64,000 bases of DNA from Oscillospiraceae bacterium. GTDB lineage: Bacteria; Bacillota; Clostridia; Oscillospirales; Acutalibacteraceae. A program made the translations under genes and the position numbers. How positions within the stretch are numbered: position 1 is the stretch's first letter; the number at the start of each line of letters is the position of its first letter. Below are positions 1,882 through 46,242 of the stretch, one piece after another. The notes under the pieces were generated by a model, which worked only from the letters and a program-made list of their open reading frames with translations, did not search any database and was not told the DNA's origin. The stretch spans positions 62,001-126,000 of the forward strand of contig CAJTCU010000004.1 in NCBI GenBank assembly GCA_910574935.1, in the 5' to 3' direction.

Positions 1882-3146
1882 TACATAGCGCCGTTCTTCT
1901 TTAGCAGCCCATGCAGGGCATCAATCTCCACCTCTTTGGGAGAAACTGATTTTTTCACAGCCAAAGAAGCTGCCAAGCCCGCCGCTTCGCCCAGGCAGCA
2001 GACAATGGGCAGAATGCGGGTAGAAGCCTGGGCCTCATGAGTTTCAGAGATACACCGGCCCGCCACCAAAAGATTGCGAATCTCTTTAGGCAACAGAGAA
2101 CGGTATGGGATAGAGTAATACTGTCCCTCTGGGAAATAATAGTGGCTTGTACCGCCGCCCTCTGGGTTGTGGATGTCAATATCATAGTTTCCCAGGGCGA
2201 TAGAGTCCTCGAACATTTTGCAGGATACCAGGTCCTCTTGGTTTAGAACATACTCGCCCACCAACTTGCGGCTTTCCCGAATACCGATCTCCGCACCAGT
2301 GGACAGCAGACAGGCATTTTGGAACCCATCGATATTCTCCCGCAAGAAGTCATAAAGCTCAAAAACATACTCCCGCACCTCAATTTCCGCTTTGGTAAGG
2401 TCCTCTGGGTCTACAGGGTTATATTTTACGGCGCGGGTAGAGTTAAAATGCAGCACTCCATCCATCACGGTGTGGAAAATCAGCACACATTCATAGTGGT
2501 TCTTAATCTTTCCCTGTTCCTTAAACTGCTGGTAAAGGGGTGTGATTTTCTCCCGGTTAGCCAGATATTTCTCAATATCAACATTGCCCAGCCGGAAGCA
2601 CAATGTCATAGGCTGGCACAGATGGTCCCTCTCTCTTCCCAACACATAACCACAACCAGCCATTGCCCCCAGGGCCATGTCCCCGGTAGCATCGATGAAA
2701 ATATTTCCTTCTATCTCCTGAATGCCAGAGGCAGCACTGGCCACCTGAATGGACTGTATCTTTCCGCCCTCTGTTTTCACCCCCACCAAACAGCAGTGGT
2801 ACAGCAGATGTACCCCGCTCTTCAAAGCCATACGGTTTAAGATAATCTTTAGGTATTCTTCGTTAAACGTATTGACATTCGTATGCCTTCTGTTAGGATG
2901 GTATTGATCTGAAAAGCGGTTTAGTTCCTCCCGTATTTCCAGAAAAATCCCCTGAGAGAGCTCTGTAAAGACGCCATTGATCTTTGTGGCATTTACCATA
3001 AAGGGGTTGACCAAAGAATTCCCCGCGGCCCCGCCCAGAGAGTTCCCCTTTTCCACCAGCAGCACGTCTGCGCCCTCTCTGGCTGCGGCAATGGCCGCCG
3101 CGGCGCCGGTAAACCCTCCGCCGACCACTACAATGTCATGTTTCAT
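1878..3146 (-). CDS. FAD-dependent oxidoreductase (FAD_oxidored family)
   Basis: A 422-residue cytoplasmic flavoprotein. The N-terminus carries the Rossmann dinucleotide motif VVVGGGFTGAAAAIAAAREG followed by the acidic residue in LLVEKG, and a second FAD contact IFIDATGDMALGAMAG lies near residue 150. The C-terminal LLVAGRCISETHEAQASTR completes the FAD site, as in the FAD_oxidored family (PF12831), whose substrates are mostly unknown. The start has AAAGGAG about 9 nt upstream and a TTGCAA-17-CATAAT promoter further up. The last codons and TAA stop lie in the terminal repeat of the family 1 element, so the natural C-terminus may have been changed slightly by insertion. Substrate unknown. Confidence 0.85.
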   Translation of the reverse strand: MKHDIVVVGGGFTGAAAAIAAAREGADVLLVEKGNSLGGAAGNSLVNPFMVNATKINGVFTELSQGIFLEIREELNRFSDQYHPNRRHTNVNTFNEEYLKIILNRMALKSGVHLLYHCCLVGVKTEGGKIQSIQVASAASGIQEIEGNIFIDATGDMALGAMAGCGYVLGRERDHLCQPMTLCFRLGNVDIEKYLANREKITPLYQQFKEQGKIKNHYECVLIFHTVMDGVLHFNSTRAVKYNPVDPEDLTKAEIEVREYVFELYDFLRENIDGFQNACLLSTGAEIGIRESRKLVGEYVLNQEDLVSCKMFEDSIALGNYDIDIHNPEGGGTSHYYFPEGQYYSIPYRSLLPKEIRNLLVAGRCISETHEAQASTRILPIVCCLGEAAGLAASLAVKKSVSPKEVEIDALHGLLKKNGAMY

Positions 3147-3182
3147 AATGATATTGCTCCTTTCACTTGTGGGCTTTATCTT

Positions 3183-3211
3183 ATTATGGAGAATTCACGC
3201 TCCTTTTGCAA
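3183..3211 (-). promoter_or_regulatory. Sigma-A promoter for the FAD oxidoreductase
   Basis: On the minus strand: TTGCAA, 17-nt spacer, CATAAT, about 40 nt upstream of the start codon at 3146. Confidence 0.55.
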
Positions 3212-3287
3212 TGCACTGAATTTGAAATAATAGGATAATCTTTTGAAATCAAACGGACACTAGAACCGCTTATCACCACACATAGTC

Positions 3288-3474
3288 TAGAGCTTGTTTG
3301 AAAATAGAGGAAATGACGAATTTTGGGCCAGAAGGGGACAATTTCAAGGAGAAGAACCGCTGTAGTTAGCTGCGCTAACTACGTCACTCTGGCGATTGAC
3401 GAGGATTTTCGACGTAGAAAGCGGCCTCTTCTGGCCCCAAAAGACGACGTTTTCGATTTTTCAAACAAGCCCTA
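3288..3474. mobile_element. MITE-like element, family 2, copy A (187 bp)
   Basis: Termini TAGAGCTTGTTTGAAAA and TTTTTCAAACAAGCCCTA are inverted repeats bounded by TA. The two halves are long imperfect complements (GGGCCAGAAG pairs with CTTCTGGCCC), so the whole element can fold as a hairpin. Related copies lie at 4977-5141 and 27568-27731, both in the opposite orientation. Copy A has about 22 additional central bases including a perfect 9-bp stem (GTAGTTAGC/GCTAACTAC). No protein is encoded. The TA flanks suggest mobilisation by a mariner/IS630-type enzyme, which is inference. Confidence 0.75.
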
Positions 3475-3584
3475 GATGCTCAATCGCAAAGAAGATAATT
3501 GTGAACACGGCTCTTCGTCTTTTGAAATGAAATACCGCATAATCTGTCAGGCTTCAGCCACTCTATTAGCAAAGAGGTGATCGT

Positions 3585-4883
3585 ATGGACTCAATTTGGA
3601 CAAACGTAAATGGTTTGCCCCAGTTCCATCCTTTAAAGGGTGATCTGCATACCGATGTACTCATTATAGGCGGTGGAATGGCGGGGGTTTTATGCGCCCA
3701 CCAACTGGCAAAGGCCGGTGTGGACTATGCCCTGGTAGAAGCCAACTGCATTGGCAGCGGTATTACCAGGAATACTACTGCAAAGATTACATCCCAGCAT
3801 GGTCTAATCTATGATAGATTACTCCAAAAATCCGGCGCGGAAATAGCAAGGCTGTATTTACAAGCAAACCAGGAAGCATTAGGCAAGTTTAAAGAGCTTT
3901 GCCAAGAGATTAACTGTGACTTTGAGGAAAGAGACGCTTTCGTATACTCGCTGGACGACCGAGAAAAAATTGAGAGAGAGGTAGCGGCGTTGAAGCATCT
4001 AGGCTTTGCCGCCTTCTTCCATACAGCGCTACCTCTGCCCTTCCCCATAGCAGGAGCCATTCAGTTTCCCAGTCAGGCACAGTTCCATCCCCTAAAATTT
4101 CTATACTCAATCGCCCGAGATCTGAGAATTTTTGAGCACACAAAAGTGCTGGAGCTGATGCCTGGAAAAGCCCGAACCACAAGAGGGACAATAATGGCAA
4201 AGAAAATTATCATTGCTACGCACTTCCCCCTTTTAAACAAACACGGCGGTTATTTTCTCAAACTATATCAACAGCGTTCCTATGTGTTAGCCCTGGAGGG
4301 CGCGCCGGATATAGGTGGCATGTATATAGATCAACAGGTATCCGGACTTAGTTTGCGCAATTACGGCGGTCTCCTACTGTTGGGAGGAGGAAGCCATCGA
4401 ACGGGAAAATCCGGCGGTTGGCAGGAGCTAGAGTCCTTTGCCCAGCGTTTTTATCCTGGCGCAAAGGTTTCCACTAAATGGGCCACGCAAGACTGCATGA
4501 GTTTGGACGCAGTTCCTTACATTGGCCAATACTCTAAAAATACACCCAATCTCTTTGTTGCCACAGGCTTTAACAAATGGGGAATGACCTCCTGCATGGC
4601 TGCCGCTTCTTTGCTAGCAGATTTGGTTCTTGGCCGCAAAAACGAATACGCCCACCTGTTTCGACCATCACGCAGCATCTTTTGTCCACAGCTGGCCTAT
4701 AATGCCATAGAAGCCATTGTAGGTCTATTAGCTCCCGCGGGTCCCCGCTGTCCACACATGGGCTGTGCGCTGAAATATAACGCCGCAGAGCACAGTTGGG
4801 ACTGTCCCTGCCATGGCTCTCGGTTCGATAAGAATGGTAGACTTATAGATAACCCAGCAACCGATGATAAAAAGAAAATATAG
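3585..4883 (+). CDS. FAD-dependent oxidoreductase with C-terminal Rieske [2Fe-2S] domain (YhfW-like)
   Basis: A 432-residue fusion. Residues ~20-350 form a DAO-type FAD domain: LIIGGGMAGVLCAHQLAKAG with the acidic residue in ALVEAN, and the FAD-binding end NLFVATGFNKWGMTSCMAA. Residues ~385-430 are a Rieske centre, CPHMGCALKYN...WDCPCHGSRF, with both Cys-x-His and Cys-x-x-His ligand pairs. The layout matches the B. subtilis YhfW family; electrons presumably pass between the iron-sulfur centre and FAD, with the substrate unknown. The C-terminus ends soon after the Rieske strand, slightly short for the family. The start ATG has AGAGGTG 6 nt upstream. The gene stands alone, with one family 2 element on each side in opposite orientations. 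Confidence 0.88.
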   Translation: MDSIWTNVNGLPQFHPLKGDLHTDVLIIGGGMAGVLCAHQLAKAGVDYALVEANCIGSGITRNTTAKITSQHGLIYDRLLQKSGAEIARLYLQANQEALGKFKELCQEINCDFEERDAFVYSLDDREKIEREVAALKHLGFAAFFHTALPLPFPIAGAIQFPSQAQFHPLKFLYSIARDLRIFEHTKVLELMPGKARTTRGTIMAKKIIIATHFPLLNKHGGYFLKLYQQRSYVLALEGAPDIGGMYIDQQVSGLSLRNYGGLLLLGGGSHRTGKSGGWQELESFAQRFYPGAKVSTKWATQDCMSLDAVPYIGQYSKNTPNLFVATGFNKWGMTSCMAAASLLADLVLGRKNEYAHLFRPSRSIFCPQLAYNAIEAIVGLLAPAGPRCPHMGCALKYNAAEHSWDCPCHGSRFDKNGRLIDNPATDDKKKI

Positions 4884-5241: not shown

Positions 5242-5357
5242 AGGGTTGGACTCTGCGCCCCGAAAAGCGGCCTGGAGCCCGGTCGTGCCGGAACGGGAGC
5301 ACGTTCCGCCGGCGCAAAATTTCTGACCAATTTATGGAAAAACAGGAGGAAAATGAG

Positions 5358-6734
5358 ATGATGGAATTTCTTCAACAGGCTGCCCAGGTAAAGCCCTCGG
5401 CCCGGCAGCTAGCCTGGTACGAAATCGGGCAATATGCCTTTATCCACTTTGGGGTGAATACCTATACGGACAAAGAATGGGGCGATGGAACAGAAGCGGA
5501 ATCCATCTTTGACCCCAAAAAACTGGACTGCGACCAATGGGTTCGGGCCGCCAAATCCGCTGGGCTAAAGGGCATTGTTCTCACTGCCAAGCACCACGAC
5601 GGTTTTTGTCTATGGCCCTCTCAGTACACGGAGCATTCGGTGAAAAATTCACCGGGAAGCCCGGATGTGGTCCGGGCCTGCTCCGAAGCCTGTGCCCGAT
5701 GTGGGCTAAAGTTTGGCTTTTACCTCTCCCCCTGGGACCGAAATTCCCCGCTGTATGGTACAGAGGCCTACAATGACTATTTTTGTAACCAGCTGGAAGA
5801 ACTGCTTACCGGCTACGGCCCTATCTTCTATGTATGGTTCGATAATGCCTGCGGCGAGGGACCTGGCGGAAAAAAGCAGGTTTATGACTTTGACCGCTAT
5901 TTCCAGCTGATTCGGAAGCACCAGCCCCAAGCTGTGATCTTCAACGACTACGGCCCCGACGTGCGCTGGTGTGGCAACGAGGCCGGAAAGCCCCGGCGTT
6001 CGGAATGGGCTGTGGTACCAAAAGAGCTCTGCAAAAATGCCCCAACCCAAACCGGTCCTGGCCCTCTGGCAGACCAAGGTACTTTGGACTACCTTTATAA
6101 TACAGAGGAAATGGTAGGCGACCTGCCGGTGATCCTCTATTCCAAAGGCCTGGTCTTTACCCCTGCGGAGATAGACACCTCCATCCGTCCTGGGTGGTTC
6201 TGGCACCCCCAGGAGGAGCCCCACAGTCTGGAACGGCTGTTTCACATTTGGCTCTCCAGTGTGGGGGCAAACGCGGGGCTAAACCTGAATCTTCCCCCCA
6301 ACCGGGATGGGCTCATTGACCAGCGGGACGTGGACCGCCTAGCTCAGCTGGGCGAACTGCTTGAAAAGGAGTTTGGACACCCTTTAAAGACCCAGATGAT
6401 TCCAGAGAAAACCGAACATACCACCCAGCCTGTCTACCGGATTCAGGTGCCAGAAAACTGCCCAGAGGTGCGGTATGTAGAGCTGCGGGAGGATATTGCC
6501 CAGGGGCAGCGGGTGGAAAGCTTTCGGATTGAGGCCCAAAGCGAAGACGGCAGCCGCTTCCCCCTGTTTCAAGGGACTACCATTGGCAACCGAAAGATCT
6601 GCCAGCTGGCAGATCCCTTTGCGGATCAGAACCAACTGACGAGAACGATTGCCACCGGAGTCCATTCCATCCGGGTGCGGGTCACAGCTGCCCGGGGTCC
6701 AGTGGCGATGAAAGAGATTATCCTATACGCTTGA
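5358..6734 (+). CDS. Alpha-L-fucosidase, glycoside hydrolase family 29
   Basis: Releases alpha-linked L-fucose from oligosaccharides such as host mucin or milk glycans. The 458-residue protein has the GH29 barrel: YAFIHFGVNTYTDKEWGDG near the N-terminus, LTAKHHDGFCLWPS, GFYLSPWDRNSP, and FYVWFDNACGEG with the expected nucleophilic aspartate. A C-terminal beta domain follows from about residue 350. No signal peptide is seen, so it is probably cytoplasmic and acts on imported glycans. An in-frame ATG exists at 5334, but AGGAGG at 5344-5349 sits ideally before the ATG at 5358, which I take as start. It is monocistronic behind a strong promoter. It matches functionally with the mucin-type peptidase at 41-46 kb. 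Confidence 0.92.
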   Translation: MMEFLQQAAQVKPSARQLAWYEIGQYAFIHFGVNTYTDKEWGDGTEAESIFDPKKLDCDQWVRAAKSAGLKGIVLTAKHHDGFCLWPSQYTEHSVKNSPGSPDVVRACSEACARCGLKFGFYLSPWDRNSPLYGTEAYNDYFCNQLEELLTGYGPIFYVWFDNACGEGPGGKKQVYDFDRYFQLIRKHQPQAVIFNDYGPDVRWCGNEAGKPRRSEWAVVPKELCKNAPTQTGPGPLADQGTLDYLYNTEEMVGDLPVILYSKGLVFTPAEIDTSIRPGWFWHPQEEPHSLERLFHIWLSSVGANAGLNLNLPPNRDGLIDQRDVDRLAQLGELLEKEFGHPLKTQMIPEKTEHTTQPVYRIQVPENCPEVRYVELREDIAQGQRVESFRIEAQSEDGSRFPLFQGTTIGNRKICQLADPFADQNQLTRTIATGVHSIRVRVTAARGPVAMKEIILYA

Positions 6735-35466: not shown

Positions 35467-36492
35467 TTATGTGCAGTTTTCACTTATATAATTATTTATG
35501 AAATTGCTATACAAAACAATCACCCCGTAACTATACGCGCTTGAGGCTACGGCAATTCCTTCTGCATAATAATTTGTTCCGCTTTTGCGGTATACAGGCC
35601 CTCCACTCATACCAGGTATAACCTCCATATACGTATATACACATGGTACATAACGCATTGAAAGGTCTCCTTCTATGCGGCCTGAGTTTTCATACATGAC
35701 GTTATCATTCCATCTACTACTCGTTTGATAATCTTTTGGATAACCATTAATATAATAAGTAGTGTTAACCATAGAATCATAGTTATTGACTACACGACGG
35801 CCTAAAGGCACCACATTTACAGTCAATGCACTGTCAAGTTTGACAATCCCCCAATCATCATATACGCCTTTAGAAGTGTAGTCAGGGCTTAACTTTTCTT
35901 CATCGGCATATCCTGGATTTTTTACATAGTCACCACCGACCGCTAGTTTATGCCCCAACCGATATTGCTTGTAGCTTCCTCCGGAAGCACCCACATAAAC
36001 AGCTACATGATTTGCGTAACCATAATCCTTTGTATACAACAAATGTCCAGCCGTCATTACATACCTATTATTTATTAGCCACCCTGTACCATATGTAATG
36101 TAATCTTCCATCCCGCTCTTAACAAATCTTACACCCAAAAGACAAGTACTAGCGTATTGATTTGTCGGAGAAGTTATTTTTTTGAAATTATTCACAAAAC
36201 GAGGGTCCATTGTAGGTTCAACTGGTAAGTCATCTTCTTCCTCAATACCAGGAATGATTTCTGGTGCATCTGTAAACTCATACTCACTAACCGGTATAAA
36301 TTCTGTCTCATCGGTATTAATGTCGTGTGTGTATACGCCTCCGCTTCCCCCAGAAGTAGAGACTAACATTTCATGCATACCGTCTTTTTCATCGTCCAGG
36401 GAAGTCGCCGCCATTCCTGTAGTTGTTACTGAAAACACAAGGACCAACGACAAGACCAAAGAAATGAATTTCTTTAATAATGATTTATTCAT
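35467..36492 (-). CDS. Secreted trypsin-like serine protease (V8/glutamyl endopeptidase type)
   Basis: A 341-residue exported protease of the S1B type. Residues 1-29 are a signal peptide (KKFISLVLSLVLVFSVTTTG, cleavage near MAA). An acidic propeptide-like stretch to about residue 105 precedes the catalytic domain: His in YVMTAGHLLY, Asp in VYDDWGIVKL, Ser in IPGMSGGPVY. AAAGGAG precedes the ATG. The gene is distinctly AT-richer than its surroundings, suggesting transfer. It is third in a probable operon behind two Ig-like exported proteins (26-nt gap), which may be partners, substrates or inhibitors. Confidence 0.88.
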   Translation of the reverse strand: MNKSLLKKFISLVLSLVLVFSVTTTGMAATSLDDEKDGMHEMLVSTSGGSGGVYTHDINTDETEFIPVSEYEFTDAPEIIPGIEEEDDLPVEPTMDPRFVNNFKKITSPTNQYASTCLLGVRFVKSGMEDYITYGTGWLINNRYVMTAGHLLYTKDYGYANHVAVYVGASGGSYKQYRLGHKLAVGGDYVKNPGYADEEKLSPDYTSKGVYDDWGIVKLDSALTVNVVPLGRRVVNNYDSMVNTTYYINGYPKDYQTSSRWNDNVMYENSGRIEGDLSMRYVPCVYTYMEVIPGMSGGPVYRKSGTNYYAEGIAVASSAYSYGVIVLYSNFINNYISENCT

Positions 36493-36518
36493 TTTTATTT
36501 CTCCTTTGTTAACGAAAG

Positions 36519-37097
36519 TTATAAATCTAACGTAAGTTCAAACGTACAATACGTGGGGCCAAACACTACTCTGTATTCACCTCGATTCTTGAAGGCCTCT
36601 TTGGGAACTTCCAGTGTAAGCGGTGTTGAGCCGGGTTCATATACATGCCCCATGCCGGGAATAACTGCTCCCGATAGGGCATTCCGGCGTTCAACGCTAT
36701 AGACTGTGTACCACCTGCCCTCTGAACGGTAGTCCAGGTCCATGGGCAAGATGTTGTGCACCTCCTGCTCATTTTCCAACAATAGATTGAGTGTCACCGT
36801 GCCCTCGGTCTCGTCCACGTCCAGGCCGGTGAAGGACAGGCTGACCCCCTCTGTACTGGTGCGTTCCGGGGCCTCTACCCAGGCCAGGCCCAGCGGCAAG
36901 CCGCAGCTGCGGTTGACAGCGCCTACCCCCTGCATCACCTTAATCATCACGGTGCCGGGAGCGCCTATTTTGCGCGGGGTGGGCTCGGGCCCTGGCGGGG
37001 CGGCGGGCTGCTGGCGCAGGGCCACGGCTGCCACCGCGCCTACAACCAGCACCAGGGCGCAGCTCAACAGTAAGATTACCTTTGTCTTTTTCTTCAT
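36519..37097 (-). CDS. Exported Ig-like domain protein, paralog 2
   Basis: A 192-residue protein with an N-terminal basic-hydrophobic export segment (KKKTKVILLLSCALVLVVGA), a Pro-rich linker (PAAPPGPEPTPRKIG) and a beta-rich domain with LSFTGLDVDETEGTVTLNLL, EGRWYTVYSVERR, and VYEPGSTPLTLEVPKEAF followed by GEYRVVFG. The layout resembles the bacterial Ig-like domains of small Firmicutes exported proteins (Big_14 type). It overlaps the upstream paralog by 4 nt (ATGA). The two proteins are near-identical in some blocks and quite different in others. Function unknown. Confidence 0.7.
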   Translation of the reverse strand: MKKKTKVILLLSCALVLVVGAVAAVALRQQPAAPPGPEPTPRKIGAPGTVMIKVMQGVGAVNRSCGLPLGLAWVEAPERTSTEGVSLSFTGLDVDETEGTVTLNLLLENEQEVHNILPMDLDYRSEGRWYTVYSVERRNALSGAVIPGMGHVYEPGSTPLTLEVPKEAFKNRGEYRVVFGPTYCTFELTLDL

Positions 37098-37708
37098 GTC
37101 AATTCCTTTCCCTTAAACTGGAAGCCGTCCGGCGTTACCTCAAATGTACAGTAGGCCGTAGGCCCCAATACCATTCGATACTGTCCTCGATTCTTGAAGG
37201 CCTCTTTGGGAAAATCTAGCTTAAGCGGTGTTGAGCCAGGTTCATACGCTATTGCTAGGGGAGTTATGTAACCCGCTAGCAATTCCATCCTCTCAAAACT
37301 ATAGACCGTATACCATTTTCCATCTGAAAGGTAATCAAGTTCTTTTGGTGAACACTCGAAAGAATCATCCAGCCAGCCCTCATTTTCCAGCAATAGATTA
37401 AGTGTCACCGTGCCCTCGGTCTCGTCCACGTCCAGGCCGGTGAAGGACAGGCTGACCCCCTCTGTACTGGTGCGTTCCGGGGCTTCTACCCAGGCCAGGC
37501 CCAGCGGCAGGCCGCAACTAGTATATACCGCGTTTATCCCATGCATTACCTTAATCGTCACGATTCTGACTTCACCTATTTTACGCGGGGTGGGTTCGGG
37601 CCCCGGCGGGGCGGCGGGCTGCTGGCGCAGGGCCACGGCTGCCACCCCGCCTACAACCAGCACCAGGGCGCAGCTCAACAGTAGGAGTACCTTTGTCTTT
37701 TTTTTCAT
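37094..37708 (-). CDS. Exported Ig-like domain protein, paralog 1
   Basis: A 204-residue paralog of the next gene. The first ~45 residues and the block WVEAPERTSTEGVSLSFTGL are almost identical in both, while the segments around residues 48-65 and 115-150 differ. It has the same export segment, Pro-rich linker and Ig-like end (YEPGSTPLKLDFPKEAFKNR). AAGGAGG precedes the ATG. It heads a three-gene operon with the V8-type protease, transcribed away from an ABC exporter. Confidence 0.7.
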   Translation of the reverse strand: MKKKTKVLLLLSCALVLVVGGVAAVALRQQPAAPPGPEPTPRKIGEVRIVTIKVMHGINAVYTSCGLPLGLAWVEAPERTSTEGVSLSFTGLDVDETEGTVTLNLLLENEGWLDDSFECSPKELDYLSDGKWYTVYSFERMELLAGYITPLAIAYEPGSTPLKLDFPKEAFKNRGQYRMVLGPTAYCTFEVTPDGFQFKGKELT

Positions 37709-39754: not shown

Positions 39755-39797
39755 CCATCCGGCGGCGACTCTAGGCTTTACAGCAGTAAAATTAAGA

Positions 39798-39830
39798 AAA
39801 GACCAGCTGATTGACTCAGCTGGTCTTTTT
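39798..39830. terminator. Bidirectional terminator between the ABC exporter and the SLH protein
   Basis: AAAGACCAGCTGA and TCAGCTGGTCTTTTT pair perfectly around TTGAC-type loop bases, with A and T runs on either side; serves both converging genes. Confidence 0.85.
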
Positions 39831-39852: not shown

Positions 39853-41163
39853 TCATGCGATCTTCTGACAAAAACGGGTGACAATGGCCGCCGCCTCGGC
39901 GCGAGTGGCAAAGCCCTTGGGCTCTAGCTTGCCTCCGCCCTTTCCATTAATAAGTCCGGTCCCTACAGCCCAGGGAATCGCCTCTTTGGCAAACTTCGAG
40001 ACCTGATCTCTATCAACAAACTGCTCCATATTCCCTTGGGCGGACAGATCGTAACCCTTATACTTGGCATAACGGTACAGGATGGTAGCCATCTGCTCCC
40101 GAGTAATTTTGTCGTTGGGCCCAAAGCGTCCGTTCCCATAACCATCCACAATGTCATTGGCAGTGGCCCAGGCGATGGGCTCTGTGTACCAGCGGCCAGG
40201 GGCCACATCGGTAAACTGGTTGCTCCCCTGTTTGGGAGAACCCTCCAGTCGATGGAGGATGGCCACCAGCATTCCCCGGCTGGTGTGTCCCGCAGGCTCA
40301 AAAAGGGTATCGGTACTGCCCTTCATCATGCCCCGGTCATACACATACTGAATATACTCGTAATACCACTTGCCCTCCTCCACATCGGTAAAGGGCATCT
40401 TTGGAGACTGCAAGGGCACGAATACCCCTTGCAAGGTCACTGGCGCGGCCGGCATGGTAAAGGCGTACCGCCCTTCCCCCAAGTCCTCCAAGGGCAGCGC
40501 TGTACCGTCTGTTTTAGAAACCTTGAAAGACTCCAGCCGGTACCCTTGGTCTGGGGTTGTCTGTACCTCCACTCGTTGGTTTTCCCGGGCGGTGGATGGC
40601 GCTGTAACCGTGCCGTGAAGGGCCCCGGACCCAGAGATGCTGTAGAATTCTCCCAGCTCCACGCTATTGGGGTCCCGCGTTACCTCCACCTCCTCCATAT
40701 AGAAGGAGTTGCCAGCGCCCGGACCATTTTGAATCATATCATAGTCCAGCAGGGCCAGCAGGGCTTTTTCCGGAACCACCCCCTGGCCGTTAGCAGTCAG
40801 TTCACCCAAAGCCAGCGTACTCTGGTGGTTCAGAGCGTACGCAGAAACCAGGTACAAGGTCACTGTTGTTTTGCCACTGCTCTGGCTCACCAGGGTGGAA
40901 AAGTTCGGACTAAAGCCGTTTTCAGGCTTCAGGGCTACCTCGCTGGGCTGGTAGGTCCCGTTTAGCGTAATTTCCATCTGCACGCCATGAATCACTTTTT
41001 CTGGGGCAATACCTGTCACCGTCAGGAGGACATTTCCCTGCTCCGTTTGGCGGTAGGATAGTTGGGTCCTAGAAGCTTCCGCAGCCAGAGATCGCGCCGG
41101 CATCCCCAAGACCACAGCCGCCGCCAAGGTAACGGAAAGTAGCAAACTAACAATTTTTCTCAT
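39853..41163 (-). CDS. SLH-anchored surface protein with a cohesin-like N-terminal domain
   Basis: A 436-residue exported protein. A signal peptide covers residues 1-28 (KIVSLLLSVTLAAAVVLG). Residues ~32-165 form a beta-sandwich resembling cohesin: NVLLTVTGIAPEKVIHGVQM, a phrase ALKPENGFSPNFSTL, and STLALGELTANGQG near its end. A second beta module (~180-250, APVTLQGVFVP) precedes three SLH repeats (FTDVEEGKWYYEYIQYVYDR; FTDVAPGRWYTEPIAWAT; the third ends AEAAAIVTRF), which attach proteins to cell-wall polymers. It follows the dockerin-bearing M60 peptidase by 3 nt with AGGAGG inside that gene. The SLH part is certain; the cohesin call is a fold-level judgement. Confidence 0.85.
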   Translation of the reverse strand: MRKIVSLLLSVTLAAAVVLGMPARSLAAEASRTQLSYRQTEQGNVLLTVTGIAPEKVIHGVQMEITLNGTYQPSEVALKPENGFSPNFSTLVSQSSGKTTVTLYLVSAYALNHQSTLALGELTANGQGVVPEKALLALLDYDMIQNGPGAGNSFYMEEVEVTRDPNSVELGEFYSISGSGALHGTVTAPSTARENQRVEVQTTPDQGYRLESFKVSKTDGTALPLEDLGEGRYAFTMPAAPVTLQGVFVPLQSPKMPFTDVEEGKWYYEYIQYVYDRGMMKGSTDTLFEPAGHTSRGMLVAILHRLEGSPKQGSNQFTDVAPGRWYTEPIAWATANDIVDGYGNGRFGPNDKITREQMATILYRYAKYKGYDLSAQGNMEQFVDRDQVSKFAKEAIPWAVGTGLINGKGGGKLEPKGFATRAEAAAIVTRFCQKIA

Positions 41164-41166
41164 AGT

Positions 41167-44100
41167 TTAGTTTCCCTCCTCCAAACGAATTTCCGGCAAA
41201 TCTGTGCCCCCGGGACTGTTGGTCCACAGGGTTTGTGCCGTGGTGCGCCTGGGGCCTGCGGGGTTGTTGGGGTCGTCCAGGCAGTCCATTTGTACCATGA
41301 TCTGGCTGGGCAGCAGGTTTACCCCGTCGCAGTGGGTGGCTCCTTGCAGCTCGGCCTCTTTTTGTACATTGGGAATGAACAGGAACAGGCCATTGCTAAT
41401 CTCGCTAACCTCTCCGTCGGCTGGCACCTCGGCAAACATTAGGGTCTCGCCATCTATATCCCGCTGAGACTCTTCCACCTTCACCTCTTCTGTGCCATCT
41501 TCGTTCACCACTGTTTTGGTAGTGGTGAATTTGCCCCGAACCCGGATAGAATTATAGATGGGATTGCCCCGGTAAGTTCCGGCTATAACCAGAGTACCCT
41601 TTTTCACCACCTGCTGGCTGCCGCCCTCTCCATAAGTATAATCCTCTGAAAGCCGCCCTACAAAACCAGAGGCGTCAGTTAAAAAGGCTACGTCATCGCC
41701 CACATAGCTTAACAGCCTTACATTAGAGGTTGTAAGGATGCCGCTGGGATCTGTGACCACAATCTTCTTCACATCGTAGGTCCAGATACGGGCATCCCCG
41801 GCAGCCGCGCCGGGCTTAGTGAAGTAGTGCAGCACAGCGTCCTTCTCGTCAACAGAGGCCACCCCCTGACCAAAATCTTTCTGGAAGGTAAAGACCTTGC
41901 CATCCTTGTCGGTAATCTCCACCGTATACGCTCCAGATGTCGGTACGCCCATGATCTTTAGGCCGGAAACAGCGGTTTCCTCTTCCAGCTCAAACACCAG
42001 AGAGCCGCCGGTATTGGCCACCCTGTAGCTGCTGGCGGGTACCGTTTTGTCATAGGCAATGCGGATCTGGTTGGTGCTGGCCGTATGGACCAGATTGCCC
42101 AGGGTATCATAGGTTTTCACCGTATAGCTGTAGGTCAGATGGTTGCCCGCGCTGATCTCGTCGGTATACAGCAAACCGCCGCTGAAGCTGTTTTCCGGCA
42201 CAAAGGCAATGGCCTTATTATTACGAAGGATCTCATATCCCTGCACGTTGGTCCCGCTGCCGGAGAGTTTTAGCTCCACCTGGGTGTCGCCCTTCTTCTC
42301 CGCTGTAACCATGAGTTCCGCATAACCTTGAGACGTATTGTTCAGCCGGTTCCTGCGGCTCTGGTCGTTTAAGTACCAGATGGCCCGGGTCTCCTTACTA
42401 TAGGTGGACAGGCGAGCGAGTACGTTGTCGCTCAGTTTCATGCCCCAGTGGGTGAAAAAGTCCGTCAGATTCCGACCCGCCACGCCGCTGGCGGTAAGCG
42501 CCACCTTTTCGTCATAACTCAGATTCAGGCCAGCCAGGTCTTTTAGATATTCCCCAGACTTCCAGGCTTTAAAGAAACGGTTGTAGAAGTCCATGGGCTG
42601 GTCCTTGCCGTCATAGGCCAGATGCAGCTGCCAGTACATAGCCAGCTGTACGAACACATCGTTGGAGGCCCCCAGCTGGCCTTGAGCGGTTTTGTTAAAC
42701 ACCGCGGCATACTTTCCACTGTTCTCCAGCCGGGACGGGAGGATATTGGCCCCGCCATCATAGGTCTGAACCATCAGAGAGTACAGGTTATTGGTAATCT
42801 CCGCCCGGCCCAGCTTATCCATGTTATGGCCGATCTCATGGGCGATGCCCCAGCCGAACAGACCGTTGGACGTAGCGCCTGAGCCAAGCTGGCTGATAGG
42901 CCTACCGCCTACCATGCCCGCGCAGGAATTGTATCCAATACCAATGTGGTTTCCCGCCGCGTACATAAACGCGCCGGAGAACATTTGCATACACCGCACA
43001 TTCTGCCGGGACTGCATGTCGTTCTTGGAATAGGTGTTGTCAATGCCTTGGGTCGTCTTGCAGATATGCATTAGATCCTCCCAGGCCAGCACCGCGTTAA
43101 ATAAGCTCTCGCTTTTGGCGCCCAGGGTGGGCGCACTATTCTGCACCGCCAGCGCCGGCAGGGAAAGCAGCATAGTGGGTGTAGAAATTTCCGTGACATT
43201 CAGGCAGCTGGTGGTTTTATTAGTATTGTTAAAATTATTTTTTGCCACATAATTTTCCAGCTCTTCCAGGTAGCTGGTAATAGCGTTCCGCTTGGCTGCC
43301 TCGGTCATGGCATACCAGTTGGAAAGCTCCAACACAGGGACGTCCGTTGCCCGACGCACGTGCAGCTGAACGTTCTGGGGGTCCGGTCCTGTATAGGTAA
43401 AGTACAGGCTGCCGCCCCGCTCGGTATTCTGGCTGCCAATCTTAGGCGTTAGCAGAATGTTCCGGCCATTTTGCACCTCTCCCATGGAGCTGAGCCACTG
43501 GGAGGCCTCGGCGTTAAACTGCGAGGCATACACCGTCAGCTTGCCCCCCTGGGGAATGCCCTGGGCATACACAGTAATCTCCTGGTTGGCTTTGGCCGCC
43601 ACGCCCAGGGGCTGTAGCTCGCTGCCACCCTGGCTGTATTTGGCGCTGTCCGCCCCGCTGCTTCGGGATTGAACTCCATTTAGCATAGCCCCGCTGCTGG
43701 AACTGCCGTTCAAAAGCTCCTGGGCCAGGGCCAGCTCGTCTCGCAGAGCCTGAATATGCAGATAATAATATTTTTCATCACTATTGAGCCGAGCCAGCAA
43801 GCTGTCGATCTTCGCCTTATCTACCCCAGGTTTTAACTGGGTACGCAGCTCACTGGTAAACAGGCCTGCGATCTCCTCGGGCAGGCAGTGGGCCGGGTCG
43901 TACTCCATAAACATCAGCTCCGAGCAGTTCACCAGGTTATAGGCTGCCTGCTCTACGGCCACACTGATCTGCTTTACCTGTTTCTCTGGTCCAAAAGGCA
44001 ACACCCCAAAGCGTTTACTGGGAATACTGCTCTGGTTGGGAATATTGGGCCAAGTGAGCACGTCCCCGCCGCCGGTACCGCCGTTGTTGTCCTGGCCGCC

Positions 44101-46116
44101 TCGCTGGGGGTCGGGCACCAGCAAATGGCCCTTCTGAGAAAGGTCCTCTCCCTCGTACCAAACTTGAATGCTATACGCCCGCAGGTAACGGGGATAATTG
44201 CCATCCAGCCGAGGCGCCCACAGCACAGCCTGAAGATCCACCGGCTCCTTGAAGGTAACGATTACGTGTTCGTTACCATACCAGTTCCGAGCAGTCCAGT
44301 GGGTACGGTAGTCTCCGTCAATGAGATTGTTGGGGGAAAAAGGCGCGGCCTGGGTGTACTCGCCGGGCGCATAGTTATTGGGGTCCGCCAGACGGATGCT
44401 CTCGATCTTGGAGCGGTCCAGCAGGCCGGACTTAGGCAGGTCTGCCGGGGGAGAGTAGTCCACTGCCCGGGGGGTCCCCTCGGAAATTCGGGACTGGCCG
44501 CTTTTGCCAATCTCGTTGCCAGCCACTACATACACCGAATAGGTAACGCCATTTTTTAGGGAGGGAATATTTACATTGGTAGATACCAGCTGGCCGCCTG
44601 CCTGCCGGTATGCCTGCTGAGAATCCTTTTCCTTATAATATACCTCATAAAAAGTGGCAGACTCCGCCGCTTTCCAAGAAACCGCCAAAGCGCTGTCCAG
44701 CTCGGTGATAGACACCATATCCGGGGCATTGGGCTTTTTGGCTGGCTGCGGCGTGGCTGAAACCGCCGGGCAGGCCTCGCCGGACCAGCCCTCGGCAGTG
44801 GGCGTTACCTGGAACCAATATGTCTTTAGGTTGTCCAGCCCACTAATCTGGGCATAGGGCGTAGTAACATCCAGCGTCTTTACACTTCCCGCGCTGCCGT
44901 CGGGCCAATAAGCCACCTGATAGCCGGTGACGTTGGGCAGGCCCCGCCACTTGAGATTTACCAGCTCACTGCCCGCTGTAGCCGTTAGGCCAGAGACCAC
45001 CCGGTTGGGGGCCACAGGGTTTTCGGGCACAATATCCTTCAAAAACTGGATGGACTCTACAGAGACCGTGCCCGTCTCTGTAGCTGTCACCGTAATGGTG
45101 ATTTTCTTCACGGGCACTCGTTTGCCTAGAACAATGGTAATGGTGGCGCTGCCCTCCCTGGGGTCAATGGCCCTTACGCCGGCAGGCAGGGCGGTATCCA
45201 TGGGAATATTCTCCGTCTCCCCAGTGGTATACTCCACTGCCACGGTTCCGGACTGAATGCCCCCCACCCTGGGGGTCACAATGGTCACCTGCTCCATTTC
45301 CACCGGCGTGGTAAAGCCAATGGGGAGCTCCACCGATCCCCCGGCAGCGGCAATAGACACCCCAGAGTCCGAGCTCCCGGCGCTAAACAGACCATCCCAG
45401 CTGCCCGAAACCAGCTGCACCGCCGACAAGGCGTCCAGGTCCACAGGAGGCGCCAGCAGGGCGCCATCCAGCAGTTCCGCATCTCCCTGGGCCCCAATAT
45501 TGCAGTTTAGATATGCCAGGTCTACCACGTCAATCTTCTCGTCGCCATTAAAATCATACGTAGCATAGCTGGCTCTGTCTCCAGAGGCCAGATGTTGGGA
45601 AAGCTGTTCCCGGTCCGCCGCGTCTACCACGCCATCTCCGTTCACATCTCCAAGGGTAAAGGTGGCGTCTCCGGTGCCCAAGTTTAGGTGGCGGGAGTAC
45701 TCCCCCAAAACCACCTCTTGGGTGTAGGTTTTATATCCCTGTCCTGTAAAAGTGAGGGTGTAGGTATCTCTGGGCAGATCAAATATGGTAAAAGCAATAT
45801 ACTTGGGCCAGCCGGTGGCGTCCTGGCCGCCATCAGCGTTCCGGGCCTCCAGCGCGGCCTGATATTGCCCCAAGACTGTAGCCTCTGTATCCCACAGTTC
45901 AATCTGTCCCAGCTCTTCCTCCCCACGGCGCAGGGTAACCCTTACATCGTGGTTTTGCAGAGCATCCAGGGATTGGGCGTAGTCCAGACGTAACGTGGCC
46001 TGAAGCTGCCCGGTAACCAAATCCGCCTGAGGGGTAGCCGCCGCCTGGACCGGTATTCCGGAAAACAGCAGCGCAGCCGCCATAAACGCGGACAAAAGCC
46101 TGGTGCGTAGTTTCAT
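41167..46116 (-). CDS. Secreted M60 (enhancin/mucinase-type) metallopeptidase with dockerin, FN3 and discoidin modules
   Basis: A 1649-residue exported peptidase. In order: signal peptide (1-27); a CnaB-like beta domain (~30-150); a dockerin-like pair of calcium loops (~157-207: DVNGDGVVDAADREQL and DFNGDEKIDVVDLAYL); a beta domain to ~365; two FN3 domains (~370-560); a discoidin/F5-8C-type domain (~575-750, IDGDYRTHWTARNWYGNEH); a helical stretch; then the M60 unit with HEIGHNMDKLGRAE at 1093-1106 (HExxHx8E). M60 enzymes cleave mucins and other O-glycoproteins. The C-terminal ~400 residues are FN3-like and beta-rich. AAAGGA is 8 nt before the ATG at 46116; an ATG at 46122 is too close. It forms an operon with the SLH protein. 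Confidence 0.92.
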   Translation of the reverse strand: MKLRTRLLSAFMAAALLFSGIPVQAAATPQADLVTGQLQATLRLDYAQSLDALQNHDVRVTLRRGEEELGQIELWDTEATVLGQYQAALEARNADGGQDATGWPKYIAFTIFDLPRDTYTLTFTGQGYKTYTQEVVLGEYSRHLNLGTGDATFTLGDVNGDGVVDAADREQLSQHLASGDRASYATYDFNGDEKIDVVDLAYLNCNIGAQGDAELLDGALLAPPVDLDALSAVQLVSGSWDGLFSAGSSDSGVSIAAAGGSVELPIGFTTPVEMEQVTIVTPRVGGIQSGTVAVEYTTGETENIPMDTALPAGVRAIDPREGSATITIVLGKRVPVKKITITVTATETGTVSVESIQFLKDIVPENPVAPNRVVSGLTATAGSELVNLKWRGLPNVTGYQVAYWPDGSAGSVKTLDVTTPYAQISGLDNLKTYWFQVTPTAEGWSGEACPAVSATPQPAKKPNAPDMVSITELDSALAVSWKAAESATFYEVYYKEKDSQQAYRQAGGQLVSTNVNIPSLKNGVTYSVYVVAGNEIGKSGQSRISEGTPRAVDYSPPADLPKSGLLDRSKIESIRLADPNNYAPGEYTQAAPFSPNNLIDGDYRTHWTARNWYGNEHVIVTFKEPVDLQAVLWAPRLDGNYPRYLRAYSIQVWYEGEDLSQKGHLLVPDPQRGGQDNNGGTGGGDVLTWPNIPNQSSIPSKRFGVLPFGPEKQVKQISVAVEQAAYNLVNCSELMFMEYDPAHCLPEEIAGLFTSELRTQLKPGVDKAKIDSLLARLNSDEKYYYLHIQALRDELALAQELLNGSSSSGAMLNGVQSRSSGADSAKYSQGGSELQPLGVAAKANQEITVYAQGIPQGGKLTVYASQFNAEASQWLSSMGEVQNGRNILLTPKIGSQNTERGGSLYFTYTGPDPQNVQLHVRRATDVPVLELSNWYAMTEAAKRNAITSYLEELENYVAKNNFNNTNKTTSCLNVTEISTPTMLLSLPALAVQNSAPTLGAKSESLFNAVLAWEDLMHICKTTQGIDNTYSKNDMQSRQNVRCMQMFSGAFMYAAGNHIGIGYNSCAGMVGGRPISQLGSGATSNGLFGWGIAHEIGHNMDKLGRAEITNNLYSLMVQTYDGGANILPSRLENSGKYAAVFNKTAQGQLGASNDVFVQLAMYWQLHLAYDGKDQPMDFYNRFFKAWKSGEYLKDLAGLNLSYDEKVALTASGVAGRNLTDFFTHWGMKLSDNVLARLSTYSKETRAIWYLNDQSRRNRLNNTSQGYAELMVTAEKKGDTQVELKLSGSGTNVQGYEILRNNKAIAFVPENSFSGGLLYTDEISAGNHLTYSYTVKTYDTLGNLVHTASTNQIRIAYDKTVPASSYRVANTGGSLVFELEEETAVSGLKIMGVPTSGAYTVEITDKDGKVFTFQKDFGQGVASVDEKDAVLHYFTKPGAAAGDARIWTYDVKKIVVTDPSGILTTSNVRLLSYVGDDVAFLTDASGFVGRLSEDYTYGEGGSQQVVKKGTLVIAGTYRGNPIYNSIRVRGKFTTTKTVVNEDGTEEVKVEESQRDIDGETLMFAEVPADGEVSEISNGLFLFIPNVQKEAELQGATHCDGVNLLPSQIMVQMDCLDDPNNPAGPRRTTAQTLWTNSPGGTDLPEIRLEEGN

Positions 46117-46140
46117 GTTCATCTTCCTTTCTACAGTAAG

Positions 46141-46213: not shown

Positions 46214-46242
46214 ATTATATCAACTTCTCCTTTGGCTGGCAA
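46214..46242 (-). promoter_or_regulatory. Promoter of the M60/SLH operon
   Basis: On the minus strand TTGCCA, 17-nt spacer, TATAAT; about 95 nt of leader. Confidence 0.7.

Follow-up and report, generated by a model that had tools for sequence, protein, structure and literature searches.

An M60 peptidase with a dockerin and its SLH-bearing neighbour, a probable surface tether in Oscillospirales

We describe two adjacent genes in a 64,000-nucleotide stretch of DNA (the window) from an Oscillospiraceae bacterium of the gut (assembly GCA_910574935.1, contig CAJTCU010000004.1, positions 62,001 to 126,000 of the forward strand). The first codes for an M60 peptidase with a type I dockerin and the second for a protein with three SLH repeats and an N-terminal beta-sandwich, hereafter the N-domain. 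Many related bacteria retain the two genes side by side, so the second protein is probably a surface tether that holds the peptidase on the cell. An earlier reading of the same DNA (the sequence-only reading) had proposed that this tethering occurs by dockerin-cohesin docking. A true dockerin, the M60 domain, the SLH anchor, the conserved unit and a set of fitting anchor swaps agree with that proposal, but sequence and profile comparisons do not identify the N-domain as a cohesin.

The peptidase gene

The first gene has the following parts, given in window coordinates:

41167..46122, minus strand: M60 peptidase gene, an open frame of 1651 amino acids from the first ATG (Pfam; signal peptide by eye)
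45658..46020, minus strand: CarboxypepD_reg/PEGA-like N-terminal domain, about residues 35-155, immediately before the dockerin (weak Pfam matches; limits approximate, by eye)
45505..45654, minus strand: type I dockerin, residues 157-206, calcium loops at 159 and 190 (Pfam)
44476..44724, minus strand: fibronectin type III (fn3) domain, residues 467-549, the better of two stretches (Pfam)
44143..44346, minus strand: F5/8 type C (discoidin) domain, residues 593-660 (Pfam)
42442..43029, minus strand: M60 catalytic domain, residues 1032-1227 (Pfam)
42826..42840, minus strand: HEIGH zinc motif, residues 1095-1099 (sequence pattern)

The protein matched Peptidase_M60 (PF13402; E = 3.2e-19, 70 bits against a cut-off of 25.8), fn3 (E = 3.6e-13, two stretches), F5_F8_type_C (E = 1.4e-7) and Dockerin_1 (PF00404; E = 6e-9, 36.4 bits against a cut-off of 22.9, and 3.6e-10 in the genome scan), the two calcium-loop repeats of the dockerin starting at residues 159 and 190. 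From residue 1095 the zinc motif reads HEIGHNMDKLGRAE, that is, HEIGH followed by E, and matches HEXXHX(8,28)E, the zinc pattern given for M60-like proteins in PMC3267712. The sequence-only reading was thus correct in describing an M60 peptidase of 1649 residues with a HEIGH...E site (1649 is the length from the next ATG, two codons on), two calcium loops like those of a type I dockerin, and discoidin and FN3 modules on the enzyme. A signal peptide could be read by eye, and a Pfam scan of the whole protein recognised no wall anchor of the peptidase's own.

The anchor gene

The second gene, for which we use the name anchor gene, is composed as follows:

39853..41163, minus strand: anchor gene, 436 amino acids (open frame; Pfam; signal peptide by eye)
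40669..41082, minus strand: N-domain, residues 28-165, a predicted beta-sandwich of the cohesin/carbohydrate-binding fold group and proposed dockerin receptor (predicted fold; no Pfam match)
40417..40632, minus strand: divergent InlB B-repeat (PF18998), residues 178-249 (Pfam), missing in some orthologues
40273..40395, minus strand: SLH repeat 1 (Pfam)
40087..40215, minus strand: SLH repeat 2 (Pfam)
39889..40020, minus strand: SLH repeat 3 (Pfam)

Three nucleotides separate the TAA of the peptidase gene from the anchor gene, and a GGAGG stands just upstream of the latter, within the peptidase gene. The three SLH stretches of the anchor gene (E = 1.3e-32) agree with the three repeats that the sequence-only reading gave for the next gene 3 nt on; that reading did not name the InlB B-repeat (E = 1.9e-8). 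In the window the stop codon of the peptidase gene is in frame with the start codon of the anchor gene (TAA ACT ATG, 41161-41169). Stop-codon read-through between the two genes was considered and dropped, the frames differing or overlapping in several other species.

Conservation of the gene pair

Conservation of the pair was followed in 29 genomes of the genus, in 394 genomes of the order and in a scan of genome contigs (L and G numbers below are our own handles). Within the genus, M60 was found in 12 of the 29 genomes and the N-domain (E ≤ 3.1e-23) in 10, all of them among the M60-bearing twelve and each time directly downstream of M60. Left uncounted were weak N-domain matches in 8 further genus genomes (E 0.001-1) and those of the family search (E 0.0018-0.008), and a match in G335 was dropped, as by reading it sits in a FolC-like frame. 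A Pfam dockerin (E ≤ 0.001) was present in nine of the ten genus peptidases; that of the tenth (G312) was read from the sequence. The contig scan gave 12 loci. Eight of these are genus genomes already counted, three (L122-L124) have M60 with dockerin loops and then an SLH gene, and the locus of L125 ends before the upstream gene.

The order sample held 31 M60 genes in 29 genomes, two rows of G539 being treated as one broken gene. By our reading, an SLH gene that bears the N-domain comes next after 20 of these genes; M60 is intact in 18 of the 20 cases, three of which belong to the genus. As for the rest, four have a downstream gene with another end, one carries SLH in cis, and the remaining six (L214, the two L217 genes, L220, L221 and L223) show neither arrangement. 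The dockerin count omits two M60 genes with broken frames, those of G405 and G539. Altogether, 28 intact M60 genes from several families of Oscillospirales have an SLH partner with an N-domain (10 from the genus, 15 from the order sample and 3 from the contig scan). N-domain and SLH occupy a single frame in 27 of these 28 partners and are separated by a stop in L211; the partner frame of L201 is short, with one SLH repeat.

Dockerin, partner and exchanged anchors

A Pfam dockerin (E ≤ 0.01) is present in 27 of the 28 intact peptidases that have an SLH partner. Three M60 proteins (L142, L143 and L213) bear three SLH repeats on the peptidase itself and have no partner gene. At these loci no N-domain was found (best E 0.64 with the 33-sequence hidden Markov model, HMM), and none of the three peptidases gave a Pfam dockerin at E ≤ 0.1 (the L142 gene is truncated by the start of its contig). 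With an SLH partner in one group and SLH in cis in the other, the anchor is thus supplied either in cis or from the next gene. Likewise, no dockerin was seen in the two M60 genes scanned among the six with neither arrangement (one L217 gene and L220; N-terminal parts).

The four M60 genes whose downstream gene has another end include three with a Pfam dockerin (L215, L216 and L219). The partners in L215, L216 and L218 keep the N-domain (E = 8.5e-8, 5.6e-14 and 1.2e-14 with an HMM from which they were held out) and end, by eye, in a membrane segment with a basic tail and no SLH. In L105, L122 and L123 the partner combines N-domain and SLH without the InlB repeat, also by eye. The constant parts are therefore the peptidase and the N-domain, and the anchor varies. 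Among the new findings, we consider that these anchor swaps speak most strongly for tethering. The L216 partner (3072-4175, minus strand) contains, besides its N-domain and its C-terminal membrane segment, a FIVAR match (6.5e-6) that is below the curated cut-off.

Fold and family of the N-domain

The AlphaFold model of the window N-domain has nine strands, a predicted local distance difference test score (pLDDT) of 87.5 and a predicted template modelling score (pTM) of 0.81, in agreement with the N-terminal beta-sandwich that had been proposed; the model of the L122 orthologue scores 90.2 and 0.83, respectively. In a Foldseek search with the window model, about two thirds of the top 50 rows carry cohesin titles, and the four matches at E ≤ 0.001 are two cohesins and two Vibrio GH20 entries. 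With the L122 model, seven matches reach E 0.001: three cellulose-binding domains or constructs, three cohesins (2jh2 twice and 2vo8) and one GH20. Cohesins thus figure strongly in either search, with cellulose-binding domains about as near. Cohesin, CBM2 and CBM3 belong to a common superfamily. From the predicted models we place the N-domain in the cohesin/CBM2/CBM3 fold group, as no more than a possible cohesin.

Residues 28-172 of the window anchor protein matched nothing in Pfam at E ≤ 10, and a sequence search of the PDB with the N-domain profile gave only two WD-40 chains (E 0.44 and 0.79). The family is coherent: when 21 members were left out one after another, an HMM of the others found 20 of them at E ≤ 8.5e-8 and missed L219 (E = 0.14). 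At E < 0.01, six of the downstream genes (L202, L203, L210, L215, L218 and L219) had escaped a first HMM built from 16 sequences. The downstream gene of L219 is not counted as carrying an N-domain, yet it is present in the 33-sequence alignment.

Dockerins, cohesins and SLH in the genome and genus

The genome to which the window belongs (4.17 Mb in 109 contigs, a draft 99.97% complete) contains two dockerin matches (E ≤ 0.001). None of its proteins passes the cut-off for a Pfam cohesin, so that the peptidase dockerin is without another recognised receptor there; the adjacent N-domain is therefore the most economical candidate. On these counts the genome shows no scaffoldin with several cohesins and several dockerin enzymes. 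SLH matches number 75, and a CsaB-type pyruvyl transferase is encoded (222.3 bits against 213.1). CsaB is linked to SLH wall anchoring.

The other dockerin of the genome (L139:6950-8452, minus strand) forms the C-terminus of a 501-amino-acid frame with an N-terminal hydrophobic segment, and open frames of 452-562 amino acids with a dockerin occur in 21 of the 29 genus genomes. In some species of the genus a cohesin-type domain precedes Cadherin-like repeats (L048 and L053 by Pfam; L049, L051 and L052 by eye); judging by scan positions, these genes are not beside a dockerin gene. Proteins of about 2,200 residues that combine a dockerin-like repeat, a cohesin-like domain and SLH are encoded at L141:3477-10106 (minus strand; G307) and L140:7839-14000 (minus strand; G315, cut). 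The L141 protein also has an S8 subtilase domain. The G307 cohesin scored 25.6 bits in the genome scan but is not among the matches at E ≤ 0.001 when the complete L141 protein is run against Pfam.

A proposed one-enzyme surface unit and its alternatives

Considering these data, we propose, with a probability of roughly 55%, that the two genes form one surface unit in which a dedicated SLH anchor receives the peptidase through its N-domain, most likely at the dockerin, and that the unit acts on glycoproteins such as mucin. Lacking a wall anchor itself, the M60 peptidase would be secreted with its dockerin beside an X-module-like domain. The SLH repeats of the anchor protein would hold a wall polymer, and the beta-sandwich of its N-domain would receive the peptidase. 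The outcome would be a one-enzyme, one-anchor surface peptidase. The domains, gene order, conservation, anchor swaps and predicted fold class are shown here, whereas the binding of the N-domain to the peptidase and the dockerin as the binding site are inferred; mucin as a substrate is suggested by analogy with the enzyme family.

Several results weigh against this proposal. The species that carry the pair are related, so the counts given above measure association and not independent events. The L216 dockerin is below the curated cut-off, and the L218 peptidase has no Pfam dockerin, only two loops seen by eye. Scans at E ≤ 10 of the window protein and of 10 N-domains, and at E ≤ 1 of 10 further partners, gave no match to Pfam Cohesin (PF00963). 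When the 33 N-domains were compared by hhalign with a set of 30 cohesins from the class, the alignment was collinear, but its score of 15.8 (P 0.052) lacks significance: among 200 block-shuffled cohesin profiles 4 scored as high or higher, and at least 6 of 33 windows of the M60 alignment reached this value, up to 18.1 (a reversed profile gave 12.8). In addition, the query-normalised TM-scores of the top 50 Foldseek rows for the window model are low (0.26-0.51). The claim that the N-domain is a cohesin is hence not supported: Pfam is negative, hhalign does not rise above its controls, and the fold matches are common to carbohydrate-binding modules. Of the two profile searches that had been suggested, the one for dockerins gave a match and the one for cohesins did not.

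The anchor protein might instead tether the peptidase by another part, for example the CarboxypepD_reg/PEGA-like domain, with the dockerin serving as a structural calcium module. A mirror-tree scan for the M60 segment that best tracks the N-domain ranked the dockerin window only 29th of 79, below windows in residues 51-142 (CarboxypepD_reg/PEGA-like) and 591-702 (the F5/8C region). Moreover, the cis-anchored L143 and L213 keep two calcium-loop motifs by eye despite their own SLH, indicating that dockerin-like sequence is not strictly tied to a partner. However, the mirror-tree comparison (31 pairs, the near-duplicate L100 dropped) is a weak test for a 50-residue module, and the difference in Pfam dockerins between SLH-partnered (27/28) and cis-anchored peptidases (0/3) argues for the dockerin. 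We consider tethering by another part unlikely.

It is likewise improbable, in our estimate, that the N-domain is a carbohydrate-binding module and that the SLH protein acts on its own as an adhesin for mucus or wall, linked to the peptidase only by the shared operon. Cellulose-binding 3ndy and 6qfs, which we take to be CBM2, and the Vibrio GH20 entries match the N-domain as cohesins do. With the L122 model, 3ndy has the best E-value (2.4e-4), 6qfs is matched twice, and the TM-scores of the cellulose-binding domains (0.48-0.51) exceed those of the cohesins (0.36-0.43). On the other hand, CBM2 and CBM3 typically have a conserved exposed aromatic platform, and the 33 N-domains share no conserved tryptophan, Tyr104 being the sole invariant aromatic residue, which argues weakly against such a module. 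It also counts against this reading that partner gene and N-domain are both missing from the locus where SLH is carried in cis on the peptidase. Finally, we consider it very unlikely that the dockerin is received by a cohesin encoded at some other place in the genome or by a neighbouring species and that the adjacent gene has nothing to do with it: Pfam cohesins pass the cut-off in 8 of the 29 genus genomes, but none does so in the window genome, and the pairing holds in 28 intact cases across several families.

Returning to docking between dockerin and N-domain, we put forward, more tentatively than the tether itself, that the N-domain represents a new, so far unrecognised family of dockerin receptors, distinct from Pfam Cohesin and devoted to the M60 glycopeptidases of the order. 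It would act as a one-to-one tether whose anchor has been exchanged (SLH or membrane segment) and which was dropped where SLH is in cis. If so, N-domain tethers of this kind could account for further 'orphan' dockerins among gut bacteria.

Relation to known systems

The SLH-anchored cohesin proteins of cellulosomes (OlpA and SdbA type) are secreted proteins that join a receptor module to SLH. Their cohesin can be identified from its sequence, and its ligands are cellulosomal enzymes or scaffoldins, whereas the N-domain falls outside Pfam Cohesin. Pairwise assembly without a scaffold, as proposed here, is seen in the cohesin-dockerin glycosidase pairs of Clostridium perfringens (2vo8, 2jh2 and 2w1n), whose cohesins are among the nearest folds. 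Those pairs appear to join glycosidases together (PMC12997984), whereas here one peptidase would be joined to a wall anchor.

A close published comparison is the mucinolysome of Limousia (PMC12997984), in genomes originally annotated as Anaeromassilibacillus or Acutalibacteraceae, the latter being the family of Acutalibacter. As that study describes it, it shares with the present pair dockerin-bearing peptidase(s) and a wall-anchored protein, cSca5, which in Limousia carries a cohesin; its substrate is mucin. Limousia has 3-6 cohesin scaffoldins, up to 22 dockerin-bearing carbohydrate-active enzymes and an LPxTG anchor on cSca5, in contrast to one peptidase, one anchor with SLH repeats and no recognised cohesin here. 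With its single enzyme and single anchor, the gene pair is a minimal relative of cellulosomes and the Limousia mucinolysome; to call it a minimal cellulosome-like unit, as had been done, overstates the case, since it comprises one enzyme and one candidate receptor and no scaffold was found.

Mucinase activity has been shown for BT4244, an M60-like (PF13402) protein (PMC3267712), and mucinases of this type have the same catalytic family, zinc motif and F5/8C (CBM32) and FN3 companions as the window peptidase. A survey of 415 M60-like proteins in the same paper lists a dockerin in two and SLH in one; its main text does not contain the word 'cohesin', nor does the main text of PMC12997984 contain 'SLH', 'S-layer', 'M60' or 'PF13402'. 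We found no description of an M60-dockerin and SLH gene pair in titles or abstract openings among the matches listed from the open-licence literature. Dockerin and SLH on M60-like proteins were thus each known before (PMC3267712), and the gene pair itself appears new. The Limousia study began from genomes with both a Pfam dockerin and a Pfam cohesin (PMC12997984). Surveys requiring both would miss the M60/SLH unit, with its clear dockerin and a receptor candidate invisible to Pfam. Should the pairing prove real, mucin-type peptidases are fixed to the wall of gut commensals by a private dockerin lock.

Other features of the window

A GH29 gene lies at 5334-6734 (plus strand; PF01120, E = 9.5e-36), about 34 kb from the pair and on the opposite strand. 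The sequence-only reading had taken a GH29 fucosidase near 5.4 kb as fitting mucin use; the gene is present, but the argument is weak because no signal peptide is visible by eye at the N-terminus of the enzyme. Two further sites flank the pair:

46214..46242, minus strand: promoter-like site TTGCCA-17-TATAAT, with TG before the second hexamer (consensus match only, 11/12)
39797..39829, minus strand: terminator-like stem after the anchor gene (pattern match only, 14 pairs)

Both are weak assignments, because the region-wide counts are 7 promoter-like and 11 terminator-like sites, against 4.6 and 7.7 expected from shuffles. Elsewhere in the window, two open frames (36519-37097 and 37094-37708), neither with a Pfam match at E ≤ 1e-5, stand within 35467-37708 beside a trypsin-like protease gene.

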